DNA of 33,216 nucleotides, from positions 1 to 33,216 of the IMG/VR virus record IMGVR_UViG_3300036715_000889. One strand, 5' to 3'. Positions within the stretch are counted from its first letter, which is position 1. Every line of letters begins with the position of its first letter. This DNA is from a virus. The notes beneath the pieces are model-generated. The model was not told the origin of the DNA, made no database searches, and saw only the letters and a program-made list of their open reading frames with translations. Below, piece after piece: positions 14,696 through 29,196 of the stretch. Position numbers and translations under genes: made by a program.

Positions 14696-15955
14696 TCAAT
14701 AGCCCTCCGTCCACGCTAGAAGCACCATTCCATTTCCGCCTGCGCCGCTGCTGTTTCCGCCTCCGACTCCACCGCCTCCGCCTCCAATTCCGCCACTTCC
14801 TCCGACTCCGCAACTGCCTCCTCCGCCTCCTCCAATGCCGCCACTCCCACCGTTGCCGGTGGAGCTTCCGCAACCACCACCGCCGCCACCAACGCCGCCG
14901 ATGCAGCCGATGCCAGCTCCACTTCCTCCACCACCGCCGCCACCAATACCGCCTATGCCGCCTGGGTAATTTGCCCCACCGCCGCCGCCAGAACCATTAA
15001 AGATACCAGGCGTAATGAAAGCCAACAGGTAATTGAAGTCTGCGGATGTAACGCTCGTGCTTGCCCCGTTTCCGCCAACGCCGGAGCCATTCCCGGCTCC
15101 GCCAGCATTGAGTATTCCTGGGCCACCGTTTGTCCCTTGGGTTGACGTTGAAGTTACGTTTGCAGTTACGCCAGTGCCGGCACTGCCCCCACCGCCCGTG
15201 CCGACGGTGCCACTCCCACCACTGCTCCCGCCATCCCGGTCGCCTCCCTTGTATATCCCGCCGCCTCCGGTTCCGAAATTGGACAGTGCGCCCGTCGCTG
15301 TGCTTGGGATAGACCCGCCCTTTCCGCCAAAACCTCCGCCGCCCGTGCCGAACGTGCTATGCGCAGCGTTCCCATCCATCGTGCCGCCCTGTCCGCCGGC
15401 CCCAAAGATCGAGCCAGCACCGCCACCGCCGAATCCGCTGCTATTCGACGTGTTTGCTACGGTTTTGCCTCCACCTGCCCCGCCTGATGCCGTAAAAGCG
15501 CCACGCAGACTTGGCGCAGCAGTACCGGAACCACCGGAGCCGCCAGCTACTGTTGCAGATGTTCCGCTTGCCTGAGTCAGGCCTGCGCCCCCGCCCGTCG
15601 CGGTTAGTAAAGTCCCCACGGAGGACGTGCCTCCTGCAACACCGTTCGACGCGCCCGTCACCGATGCGCCGCCGGCTCCTACAGTGATCGTTGGGAGCGT
15701 CTGCCCCGGCACCACGTCAATGATGCCCATTGCAAAGCCGCCGCCGCCGCCGCCCGTGCCCGTGCCGCCATTGTTACTGCCGCCAGACCCACCAGCACCA
15801 ACGACGACCGCTAGAACCTGAAAAACGTTCTGCGGCACTACGAAATCGTTGTATGTGCCAGGAACAAGATACGCCTTGACGTTCTTCCAATACGGCGGAG
15901 CCACGCGCGTGGGCGCATTCGGCGGGAGCGGATACCCGTAGTTTCCTTTGTTCAT
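14696..15955 (-). CDS. Glycine-rich virion protein, receptor-binding candidate
   Basis: The 419-residue product has a short non-repetitive N-terminus (residues 1-50, with KAYLVPGTYNDFVVPQNVFQ), then about 350 residues dominated by Gly, Ser, Thr and Ala in short runs (GGGG blocks), interrupted near residue 310 by ADFNYLLAFITPG. It ends with GMVLLAWTEGY. This layout is that of Gly-rich domains that can form polyglycine-II sheets, as in the receptor-binding gp38 adhesin of T-even-like phages (S16). Three Cys residues lie in the C-terminal repeats. The start at 15955 overlaps the upstream stop (TAATG). Receptor binding is inferred from composition and context. Confidence 0.75.
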   Translation of the reverse strand: MNKGNYGYPLPPNAPTRVAPPYWKNVKAYLVPGTYNDFVVPQNVFQVLAVVVGAGGSGGSNNGGTGTGGGGGGFAMGIIDVVPGQTLPTITVGAGGASVTGASNGVAGGTSSVGTLLTATGGGAGLTQASGTSATVAGGSGGSGTAAPSLRGAFTASGGAGGGKTVANTSNSSGFGGGGAGSIFGAGGQGGTMDGNAAHSTFGTGGGGFGGKGGSIPSTATGALSNFGTGGGGIYKGGDRDGGSSGGSGTVGTGGGGSAGTGVTANVTSTSTQGTNGGPGILNAGGAGNGSGVGGNGASTSVTSADFNYLLAFITPGIFNGSGGGGGANYPGGIGGIGGGGGGGSGAGIGCIGGVGGGGGGCGSSTGNGGSGGIGGGGGGSCGVGGSGGIGGGGGGVGGGNSSGAGGNGMVLLAWTEGY

Positions 15956-26675: not shown

Positions 26676-27137
26676 TTACTCCTCAACGAAAGATTCGGCC
26701 ATCTGCTCCACCTGCTCCGGCGTCATGCTAGGCCAGTATTTTCCCGAGATGAACCGGCACATCGCCCTGGCCGTCTCGTGAAATTCGCCCTCGTCCATCG
26801 TGCTAAACGACAGGCTTTTTGGGATCGTAACAAGGCATCGACCGATTCCAGGCATGTCCACCGCTTGCTGCTCGCACGCAATTCCGCCTTCGAGCTGTAT
26901 GCGCTTGATCGCCTCGTGTGCTGTCATGCCAGCGAAGTCCTCGATGTTTGCCGCCGCAAGTGCGCCGATGTGGTGAACCAGCCGATGAAACCGAGGGTTG
27001 CGCAGTTTCACGAGGTCGGCCTGCAAGATGTCTCCGACTTTGAATCCACGGCTGCGGAGCTTGCTTGCAGCGCAGTCATCCGCAGGCACAAGTGCCCCCT
27101 TGACCACGCGTAGGAAGATTTTTTCGCGTCCCATCAT
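26676..27137 (-). CDS. DUF1367-like protein (153 aa)
   Basis: The product (LRVVKGALVPADDCAASKLRSRGFKVGDILQADLVKLRNPRFHRLVHHIGALA) shows the pattern of DUF1367 phage proteins: V.G.L.PAD..A...L...K.GD......RNP.FHR..H. A second half (EGGIACEQQAVDMPGIGRCLVTIPKSLSFSTMDEGEFHETARAMCRFISGKYW) fits. Such proteins lie in replication or nin-type regions; no biochemical role is established. It starts with ATGATG, the first ATG overlapping the upstream stop (ATGA). Confidence 0.85.
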   Translation of the reverse strand: MMGREKIFLRVVKGALVPADDCAASKLRSRGFKVGDILQADLVKLRNPRFHRLVHHIGALAAANIEDFAGMTAHEAIKRIQLEGGIACEQQAVDMPGIGRCLVTIPKSLSFSTMDEGEFHETARAMCRFISGKYWPSMTPEQVEQMAESFVEE

Positions 27138-27751
27138 TTCGCCTGAAGCAGTTTTGCTATCCCGCCGATTTGCGTCTTGCCGCCGCCCAGTTTGTAGACC
27201 GCCCGCGCATTTTCGGGGTCGCCGATTGGCACCGGCTTCGGAGGCTCAAGCCCGCGCCTCCGGTAAACGTCATCCGAGCTTCGGTCGCCACTGAGCTTGC
27301 GCGGGTAATCGAACGCCCCACGCTCGGAATAGGCTCGGTATGACTCGCAAAAGCGGTGTTGCAGATAGGACAGGTCTTTAGTCTCGGCTCGGCAAAACTT
27401 CGGCCATCCTCCCATGTCCTCGATGGCCGCATGGATGGCTGGATCATCGAACACCACGTCGGAATACGCACCGATGCGCTGCGCGGCTTCGAGCGCCTTG
27501 CCCCAGGCCAGGGCAGCCTTGTCCTCTGTCGTCCCCTCCAGCAGCCGCACGATATCGGCAACCTTCGGCGCAAACTGCCCGGCGTCCGCGTGCATTGCGT
27601 GTCGGGTGAGCGCCTTACGAACCTGCTCCATCGTGTACCGCTCGCACGCGGCCCACCACACCGACAGCACGTAGGGGCTTGCGTTCTTGCCGTAGTACGC
27701 CATCGCGTCGGTCAACAGCTGCATGAATTGGTCTCGGTCTTCTGGTCTCAT
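27134..27751 (-). CDS. DUF6475-like replication-region protein (205 aa)
   Basis: The sequence MRPEDRDQFMQLLTDAMAYYGKNASPYVLSVWWAACERYTMEQVRKALTRHAM, then GQFAPKVADIVRLLEG and later VVFDDPAIHAAIEDMGGW and RFCESYRAY, matches the DUF6475-type proteins that often lie next to a phage replication initiator. Their role may be helicase loading, by position analogous to lambda P, but that is not shown. I chose ATG 27751 because it overlaps the O-like stop (ATGA). The upstream frame extension to 27940 was rejected. Confidence 0.85.
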   Translation of the reverse strand: MRPEDRDQFMQLLTDAMAYYGKNASPYVLSVWWAACERYTMEQVRKALTRHAMHADAGQFAPKVADIVRLLEGTTEDKAALAWGKALEAAQRIGAYSDVVFDDPAIHAAIEDMGGWPKFCRAETKDLSYLQHRFCESYRAYSERGAFDYPRKLSGDRSSDDVYRRRGLEPPKPVPIGDPENARAVYKLGGGKTQIGGIAKLLQAK

Positions 27752-28635
27752 TCGTGCCCTCCTTGCGACTCTCGCTGCCTCATCTGTGCCAGCCACTCTT
27801 GGCCGACGCGCCGGTTTTCTTCCTCGAGCGCGATCTGTCGATTGAAAAATGGCCGCTGCCCCTGCGCCTGTTGCCCGCCGGACTGCTTCGCCGACGTGTA
27901 CCAGTCCGCTCTGAAGCCCTGCCAGCCGGATAGGCAGCAATGGGCGATAGCGTCTTGCAGGTTGATCCCGGCCTTGTCGGCTTCGCGCCTCATGCTGTCG
28001 AGTACGGTTTGCGTGACAGGCCCTGCTCGCTTGGCTTTGCGGACTTCGAGCCAGTCGCCGAACACCTGCTCGTCAACGTCATCAGGGCACGCTATGGCTG
28101 CTGACGGTTTCGACGTGCGCGCGGTCGAGCGTGCGCGCTTATCTATTGACGGTTCATTTGGTGGTTCTATTGGTGGTTCTATGATGGTTAGGGTGACATC
28201 CATGTCACCCGTCTGCGTCATGGATGTCACCCGTCCCATGTCATAGATGTCACCCGTCTGCGTCATGGATGTCACCCGTGACACTGGTGTCACCCCTGAC
28301 ATTGGTGTCACCCGTGTTTTGCTATTGACGTGCGTATCCTGTCCGATATTCGCCGCGTCAGTTAGCTTGTGCACATTGATCTGGTAGTGCCTGACGGCCC
28401 CGGGCTTGCCGCCGTGTTCGTTTCCTACAACTGCGATCCAGCCGGCATCAATTAGACGGTGCAGCACCCGCTGCGCCTGCCTTGTAGAGCAAGAAAGACG
28501 TTCGGCGAGCCTTGCGATGCTTGGGTATAGGCTGCCGCCGTCGTCGTTCGCCCAGTCGCACATTGCTAGTAGTGAAAGTTTCTCACTCGCCGAAATATTC
28601 GCCCGCCAAGCAGCCACCATCAACTTTATGCTCAT
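27748..28635 (-). CDS. O-like replication initiator with internal iterons
   Basis: The N-terminal 90 residues form a winged helix-turn-helix (SEKLSLLAMCDWANDDGGSLYPSIARLAERLSCSTRQAQRVLHRLIDAGWIAVV), as in phage replication initiators. Residues 108-149 contain repeated peptides (VTSMTQTGD twice), whose DNA is a cluster of iterons; this matches lambda, where the origin lies inside gene O. After a Pro/Glu linker (EPPIEPPNEPS) comes a C-terminal helical domain that would contact the replication partner. The gene is coupled to both neighbours by ATGA. It would bind the iterons and recruit helicase through the downstream protein. Confidence 0.85.
   Translation of the reverse strand: MSIKLMVAAWRANISASEKLSLLAMCDWANDDGGSLYPSIARLAERLSCSTRQAQRVLHRLIDAGWIAVVGNEHGGKPGAVRHYQINVHKLTDAANIGQDTHVNSKTRVTPMSGVTPVSRVTSMTQTGDIYDMGRVTSMTQTGDMDVTLTIIEPPIEPPNEPSIDKRARSTARTSKPSAAIACPDDVDEQVFGDWLEVRKAKRAGPVTQTVLDSMRREADKAGINLQDAIAHCCLSGWQGFRADWYTSAKQSGGQQAQGQRPFFNRQIALEEENRRVGQEWLAQMRQRESQGGHE
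28191..28315. repeat. Iteron cluster, predicted replication origin
   Basis: Six direct copies of (A/G)TGTCACCC(G/C)T start at 28202, 28224, 28247, 28269, 28287 and 28305, with spacings of 22, 23, 22, 18 and 18 bases. One inverted copy (GGGTGACAT, 28191-28199) lies in a palindrome with the first. A 33-base unit is repeated exactly at 28202-28234 and 28247-28279. The cluster lies inside the O-like gene. Next to it, 28151-28186 has short repeats of GGTGGTTCTAT that may be the unwinding side. Confidence 0.85.
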
Positions 28636-28943
28636 GGTGTTCCCCGTTCGATGATGTATGTGACGCCGGCCATCTTCCCGTCCTTGCCTCTGCGCTGCTC
28701 ACGGCGCACATAGCCCGCCTTGATGAGCTCGTCTAGCAGGGAATAGGTTGCGTCTCGGCAAGTAGGCTTATCGGTACCAGCAACCTCGTTGACAAGGGCG
28801 GCGGCTGACACCCGCCAGTTGTCAGGCTTTCCGAGGATGTATATCAGCAGGCCGCGCGCCGCCCATGAAAGCCGCTTGTCCTCGCTGATGCGCTTGTCCA
28901 GCAGGTAGAAATTGCTTTCCGGATTAGGTGATCGGACGATCAT
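28632..28943 (-). CDS. Winged-helix DNA-binding protein (103 aa)
   Basis: The product starts MIVRSPNPESNFYLLDKRISEDKRLSWAARGLLIYILGKPDNWRVSAAALVNEV and continues through SLLDELIKAGYVRREQRRGKDGKM to an AGVTYIIERGTP end. This is a helix-turn-helix with a wing, as seen in phage replication and regulatory proteins that precede O-like genes. ATG 28943 overlaps the YdaS stop and its own stop overlaps the O-like start (ATGA both). It could help load or regulate replication. Confidence 0.82.
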   Translation of the reverse strand: MIVRSPNPESNFYLLDKRISEDKRLSWAARGLLIYILGKPDNWRVSAAALVNEVAGTDKPTCRDATYSLLDELIKAGYVRREQRRGKDGKMAGVTYIIERGTP

Positions 28944-29170
28944 TTTTCGCCCCCGAATTTCTGGCGCATGTAGCCCCAATTGATATCCGGGCGCAGTTCC
29001 TCGCACGGCACACCTGTCTCGGCCTCTATCTTGGGGCACATTTTGACCGGCACCTGACGACGATTCGCCCACATCCAGATGCCCTGCTTGGTACTGCCAA
29101 TGGCTCTGGCAAGCTGCGTTAGCCCACCTGCCGCCTTGATCGCTCGATGTAGTCCATGTGCTTGTTCCAT
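28940..29170 (-). CDS. YdaS/Cro-like transcriptional regulator
   Basis: The 76-residue product (GLHRAIKAAGGLTQLARAIGSTKQGIWMWANRRQVPVKMCPKIEAETGVPCEELRPDINW) has a helix-turn-helix at about residues 16-38 followed by the ECP/C.IE..TG..CEELRPD..W pattern of YdaS-type Cro-like proteins. It heads the minus-strand replication run and lies next to the divergent promoter region, as Cro or CII-like proteins do. ATG 29170 has AAGGAG with good spacing. It probably regulates both directions from 29171-29356. Confidence 0.9.
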   Translation of the reverse strand: MEQAHGLHRAIKAAGGLTQLARAIGSTKQGIWMWANRRQVPVKMCPKIEAETGVPCEELRPDINWGYMRQKFGGEK

Positions 29171-29196
29171 GCCTGCTCCTTAGTGGCGGGGGCGGT

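Follow-up and report, generated by a model that had tools for sequence, protein, structure and literature searches.

In phage lambda the replication origin lies inside gene O, where four iterons, spaced 20, 24, and 23 bases apart and set in all three frames, are followed by 60 nt with 50% A. Likewise, the Stx phages P27 and 933W have their origin within the O gene, and the two iterons that they carry beyond those of lambda add 13 residues (PMC7466680). Repeats have also been noted inside an O-like gene of a non-lambda phage, gp56 of Pseudomonas phage MD8, and in the accessible part of that account neither an iteron sequence nor a helix comparison was found (PMC8508860). In the PLE satellites of Vibrio cholerae, the RepA_N initiator keeps a conserved C-terminal domain, while its DNA-binding domain covaries with an iteron-bearing origin and is swapped together with it as a module (PMC8263062).

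The virus sequence analyzed here comes from IMG/VR and comprises 33,216 bases (the window, meaning the whole stretch of DNA under analysis); no terminal repeat was found in its full length. By analogy with the lambda system, a cluster of repeats at 28191-28313 is highly likely to be a replication origin of lambda-type build; in other words, copying of this phage's DNA very probably starts at repeats inside its own initiator gene. The lambda-like location claimed in an earlier note on this DNA was borne out, with the origin candidate in the middle of the initiator gene, and the likeness extends to the dyad symmetry of the iterons, their use of several frames, and the A-rich strand directly after them. 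Lambda O also matches phrog_678 and phrog_391, as the window protein does. In contrast, phrog_277, which is lambda O's own family (1.2e-152), gave no match to the window protein at E <= 0.1, lambda O was not found by the HTH_36 profile of the window family, and the lambda iteron, ATCCCTCAAAACGAGGGA, differs from the GGGTGACA-N4-TGTCACCC of the window. The origin architecture is known, and the origin itself is the lambda design. The iteron class and the helix-iteron code described below appear to be unreported, since a literature search that covered few subscription papers returned neither the GGGTGAC class nor a residue-level helix-iteron rule for phages. What would matter is the generalization, by which initiator-origin specificity, classically known from a handful of lambdoid phages, would become predictable and testable from sequence.

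The initiator gene and its repeats

The gene that carries the cluster (Table 1) encodes a winged-helix initiator, as the earlier note had proposed. The protein matches Pfam HTH_36 (PF13730) at 3.3e-14 (52.9 bits, cut-off 25), a family that is matched by 62 of 62 aligned relatives at E <= 0.001, and it matches two PHROGs annotated as 'replication initiation O-like', phrog_678 at 2.1e-28 and phrog_391 at 3.9e-22. An AlphaFold2 model of residues 1-101, made with 62 aligned family members, has a mean pLDDT of 91.5 and places helices at 40-47 and 51-64, followed by strands at 67-71 and 83-86. Residues R52, Q55, and R56, which correspond to alignment columns 53, 56, and 57, occupy positions 2, 5, and 6 of the recognition helix. 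The closest solved relative is the N-terminal domain of DnaD, both as the top Foldseek match of the model (2v79, E 5.7e-3) and by sequence (2vn2, E 1e-5), yet the relation is weak, and the match to Pfam DnaD_N stays below the curated cut-off (best 24.1 bits versus 27). DnaD is a helicase loader and not an iteron-binding initiator. A further structure comparison placed numerous winged-helix regulators at Z 8-9; this shows a common fold and nothing beyond it.

The initiator gene is followed by the DUF6475 gene and then by a NinB-like gene. The DUF6475 protein matches the helicase loader family phrog_2289 at 0.0037, which weakly suggests a P-like identity. On the other side, at 28940-29170 (minus strand), a protein in the Cro position matches both Pfam 'YdaS toxin' (5.8e-19) and Cro/CI regulators; it is more likely a Cro-like phage regulator.

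In the entire 33,216-base record, the word GGGTGACA occurs seven times, and all copies fall within 28191-28313, in the linker between the DNA-binding and C-terminal domains (7/7). Six are direct on the coding (minus) strand and one, at 28191-28198, is inverted, just as the earlier note had described them; its 33-base exact duplication was likewise confirmed (28202-28234 is identical to 28247-28279). Its near-helical spacing is true in part, the direct copies following each other at 18, 18, 22, 23, and 22 bases in coding order. Iteron 6 and the inverted iteron 7 together form a perfect palindrome, GGGTGACAT-CC-ATGTCACCC, over 28191-28210. As a functional unit, the imperfect palindrome GGGTGACA-N4-TGTCA(CCC) is the more fitting description.

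Table 1. Positions of the features discussed, in window coordinates
Feature	Position	Strand	Source
Gene for the O-like replication initiator (295 aa; HTH_36 winged helix, then linker, then C-terminal domain)	27748..28635	-	Pfam, PHROGs
Winged-helix DNA-binding domain, residues 1-86	28378..28635	-	AlphaFold2 model
Recognition helix, residues 51-64 (T51 R52 Q53 A54 Q55 R56 ...)	28444..28485	-	Model
Iteron 1, GGGTGACA	28306..28313	-	
Iteron 2, GGGTGACA	28288..28295	-	
Iteron 3, GGGTGACA	28270..28277	-	
Iteron 4, GGGTGACA, second reading frame	28248..28255	-	
Iteron 5, GGGTGACA	28225..28232	-	
Iteron 6, GGGTGACA, second reading frame, right arm of palindrome	28203..28210	-	
Iteron 7, inverted copy, pairs with iteron 6 into palindrome GGGTGACATCCATGTCACCC (28191-28210)	28191..28198	+	
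33-base exact duplication, copy 1	28202..28234		
33-base exact duplication, copy 2, offset 45 bases	28247..28279		
A-rich tract on coding strand, directly after iterons; candidate unwinding element	28138..28190	-	
C-terminal domain (DDVDEQVFGDWLEVRK...WQGFRADW), residues ~174-245	27901..28116	-	
Next gene, lambda P position, DUF6475 protein, possible helicase loader	27134..27751	-	Pfam DUF6475 2e-29

Selection on the repeated word

A chance origin of the cluster was excluded by two computations. In genomes simulated with equal dinucleotide composition (200 runs), no stretch of 130 bp contained more than 1 copy of GGGTGACA, and when the linker was recoded synonymously 200,000 times with the codon usage of the phage, the count did not exceed 4, versus the 7 observed.

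The iteron is read as R/G-V-T in four copies, as T-G-D in two, and as D-V-T in the inverted copy. Given that it is thus coded in two reading frames and one inverted setting, it is the DNA and not the peptide that is conserved. Of 87 representative family genes with the iteron, 83 place it in more than one frame/strand setting; all five stop-free settings are used across these genes, and the sixth, which would read a TGA stop, never is. We consider it extremely improbable that the repeats are kept for their peptide, as a flexible or structured linker of which the DNA repeat would be a by-product. It is true that the 45-nt unit repeats a peptide, RVTSMTQTGD, which occurs twice, and to this extent the repeated peptide of the earlier note is real. 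Beyond that unit the description fails: two frames and an inverted setting are in use across the cluster. Linker peptides also vary widely among genes that share the iteron, and recoding with synonymous codons cannot regenerate the cluster. On the combination of multi-frame use and recoding, selection at the peptide level was rejected.

L007, at 57% identity the nearest relative, has five direct copies, one fewer than the window, at spacings of 18, 18, 23, and 22 and with the frames switched. Its copy number, spacings, and frames imply that expansion is not limited to multiples of three while the linker stays open. Hence, the proposed growth in multiples of three describes the 45-nt, two-iteron duplication and does not serve as a general rule. 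A coding sequence can apparently hold a changing array of binding sites without loss of frame.

The iteron word and the recognition helix

A gene-blind scan of IMG/VR for clusters of GGGTGAC (three copies in about 60 bp) returned at least 120 contigs, and in 74 of the 120 listed the cluster lay inside a winged-helix ORF. The reversed word CAGTGGG also gave at least 120 contigs in the same scan, so that raw contig counts say nothing and gene context alone counts; for this control, 0 of the 120 listed contigs had the cluster in a winged-helix gene. In bacterial chromosomes, the same pattern hit mostly unrelated repeats, with 4 of 118 loci in a winged-helix ORF, and a plasmid collection contained 10 relatives, all of them weak. 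Alignment A2 was too diverse to serve as a scan query. The GGGTGACA-type iteron, which the earlier note did not recognize, is very common in the O-like/HTH_36 family. That the cluster might be a neutral tandem duplication, a microsatellite-like accident, has a negligible likelihood in our view: the 33-base exact duplication fits such an origin, but the iteron word is found in unrelated phages and is tied there to the recognition helix, the control word was absent from winged-helix genes in all 120 listed contigs, and the covariation of helix and iteron described below opposes it, unless this is a sampling artifact.

The geometry of the sites is conserved. In the GGTGAC class, distances between neighbors on the same strand center on 21-23 bp (147 pairs) and, to a lesser extent, on 17-18, and those between converging sites on 11-12 bp. 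The GGTGCA (Y) class keeps the same distances despite its different half-site, and the small GGTGAAC (K) class is similar. The averaged site consists of GGGTGACA, then its inverted half some 4 to 5 bases on. One close relative of the GGGTGAC group, L566, carries four copies of GGGGAGAC after the winged helix, a one-base change made throughout the array.

Relatives were then sampled by protein similarity and not by iteron, giving 154 representatives with less than 90% identity in the winged helix, and GGTGAC was counted after the winged-helix domain, with three or more copies scored as positive. Genes with the helix R-x-x-[QKIS]-R (columns 53, 56, and 57) were positive in 48 of 59 cases, a fitted figure in that the motif was picked after the data had been seen and some scan queries came from iteron-bearing genes. 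The remaining 11 of the 59 lacked three copies, and none of the 95 genes with any other helix was positive. Column 57 was the most informative on iteron class among 70 alignment columns, and a pairwise test that allowed for identity outside the helix found that four columns of the recognition helix, 57 first and then 56, 51, and 53, best explained which genes have repeat words in common. Close relatives with unlike motifs were also compared in 35 disjoint pairs: the iteron differed as predicted in 26 of these, showed no difference in 9, and changed in the opposite sense in none. Restricting the comparison to well-supported branches of a tree left 5 pairs, too few for significance, with 3.5 as predicted and 0 opposite (median p 0.125).

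Other helices go with other words. A Y or K at column 57 accompanies GGGTGCAA or GGTGAAC; R-Q-Y helices have GTGCAA in 22/22 genes, R-Q-K helices GTGAAC in 11/13, R-R-R helices CGGACA in 5/7, and S-Q-R helices GTCGCA in 3/4. These sequence comparisons, over hundreds of related phages, suggest that a few residues of the recognition helix in the initiator decide which repeat sequence is read. On balance, we think that the HTH_36 O-like initiators of many unrelated phages probably belong to a single system, with the origin encoded in the linker and the iteron selected by columns 53, 56, and 57 (R..[QK]R for GGTGAC, R..QY for GGGTGCAA, R..QK for GGTGAAC, R..RR for CGGACA, and S..QR for GGGTCGCA), so that initiator and origin would switch specificity together. 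If true, phages could be assigned to replication specificity groups by sequence, and origins could be annotated in many genes now listed as 'hypothetical protein', such as gp54 of JBD68.

The records of JBD68, Mesorhizobium phage P1, the Arsenophonus phage-plasmid, and Arthrobacter phage Coral were fetched after the sampling on which the rule is based. JBD68 gp54 (helix SERTVQYKL) contains seven GGGTGCA, and GGGTGAC and GGTGACA are present in Mesorhizobium phage P1 (SPRQVQREI) and the Arsenophonus phage-plasmid (SKRTVIRHI), respectively. Coral is an exception, having R at column 57 but one GGTGAC, and the GGGGAGAC variant of L566 is another. With the rule fixed, 66 genes from bacterial genomes, taken in three overlapping draws (299, 300, and 246 genomes) and counted irrespective of any prophage context, had at least three GGTGAC in 2 of the 6 with the motif and in 1 of the 60 without it (Fisher p 0.02). 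The single motif-negative gene with three copies retains R at 53 and 57. From these counts, the motif would be nearly necessary, and sufficient among closer relatives only.

The Arsenophonus element (L817, Arsenophonus nasoniae plasmid paNv_UK9) is a circular phage-plasmid that combines an O/P module containing GGTGACA with a separate replication initiation gene and parM, and is thus a case of two replication systems in one element. It was dropped as natural evidence for replication because of this other initiation gene.

Probable origin layout, competing readings, and possible domain exchange

The coding strand directly after the iterons is A-rich, with 43% A and 13% T over 60 nt, and 28138-28182 are the most A+T-rich 45 bp of the initiator gene. 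This is a family trait: averaged over 80 genes, the last iteron is followed by about 45 nt of A-rich coding strand, with up to 42% A versus 22% in the winged-helix part. The proposal of an origin inside the O-like gene with a lambda-like layout is supported by the O-like PHROG matches, the multi-frame iterons, the A-rich tract, and the covariation of helix and iteron. The strongest new support is the last of these: in the 154 relatives compared, the iteron of a gene follows that gene's own recognition helix.

By analogy with lambda, we envisage that the winged helix at the N terminus of the initiator would bind, as a dimer, imperfect palindromes of the form GGGTGACA-N4-TGTCACCC and half-matched variants, the bound sites being the very DNA that encodes the initiator's own linker. 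The resulting row of bound initiators, a nucleoprotein complex, could open the adjacent A-rich tract, and the C-terminal domain together with the product of the next gene may load the host helicase. Specificity would stem mostly from R52, Q55, and R56.

The main rival to the origin reading is an autoregulatory role, in which the O-like protein would bind the iterons to regulate its own transcription, as at an operator, or to control copy number, with replication starting elsewhere. Most of the same features would be expected of such an operator, and the covariation points to binding by the gene's own helix and not by itself to initiation. We nonetheless consider this role unlikely, since the sites lie in the middle of the gene, about 320 bases into the ORF and not at a promoter, the A-rich tract adjoins them, and lambda and the Stx phages have exactly such a layout as their origin (PMC7466680).

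The earlier note had also suggested cumulative GC skew as a check on the origin. Agreement was weak: the minimum, at 29,179, falls within 1 kb, but transcription diverges there too, so that the coincidence is not independent evidence. The minimum is near the origin in the Arsenophonus phage-plasmid as well, and near the end of the record in JBD68 and Mesorhizobium phage P1. With the minimum elsewhere in these two complete phages, GC skew was set aside as uninformative. In a separate part of the window with strong C skew on the plus strand, 14696-15955 (minus strand) encodes a 419-aa glycine-rich protein that contains long GGG/GGA-like repeats.

Directly upstream of the initiator gene, ORF 28632-28943 (minus strand, 103 aa) is identical at 82 of 98 positions to the N-terminal domain of an O-like protein in a relative, L022, whose C-terminal domain is identical to that of the window at 64 of 88. 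Judged by these identities, the ORF is a putative orphan, an alternative initiator DNA-binding domain beside a complete initiator. Conceivably, this protein or a host factor could be the one that reads the iterons, given that the ORF encodes the DNA-binding domain of an alternative initiator. We find this very unlikely, as the same domain is accompanied in L022 by different repeats, CCGCATACGGCTCAG, and GGGTGAC follows the HTH_36 helix. The initiator itself, in our preferred reading, would be what binds the cluster.

The C-terminal domain of the window protein is common to proteins with different N-terminal domains. The WQGFRADW domain of L022 follows an N-terminal domain like that of ORF 28632-28943 and goes with the CCGCATACGGCTCAG repeats, and that of a second relative, L008, is joined to a DUF1376 N-terminal domain and goes with GGCAATGCC repeats. 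It looks as if the DNA-binding domain and the repeats are exchanged as one cassette. Such exchange resembles that of the RepA_N/ori modules of the Vibrio cholerae PLE satellites, which differ in having a RepA_N initiator, a separate origin, and swaps of whole domains instead of the residue-level rule seen here. In the DUF1376 relatives, as at L008:5860-6000, the linker carries GGCAATGCC / ATGCCGTGGCA repeats and then a run coding for (TP)n; these repeats are probably another iteron class.
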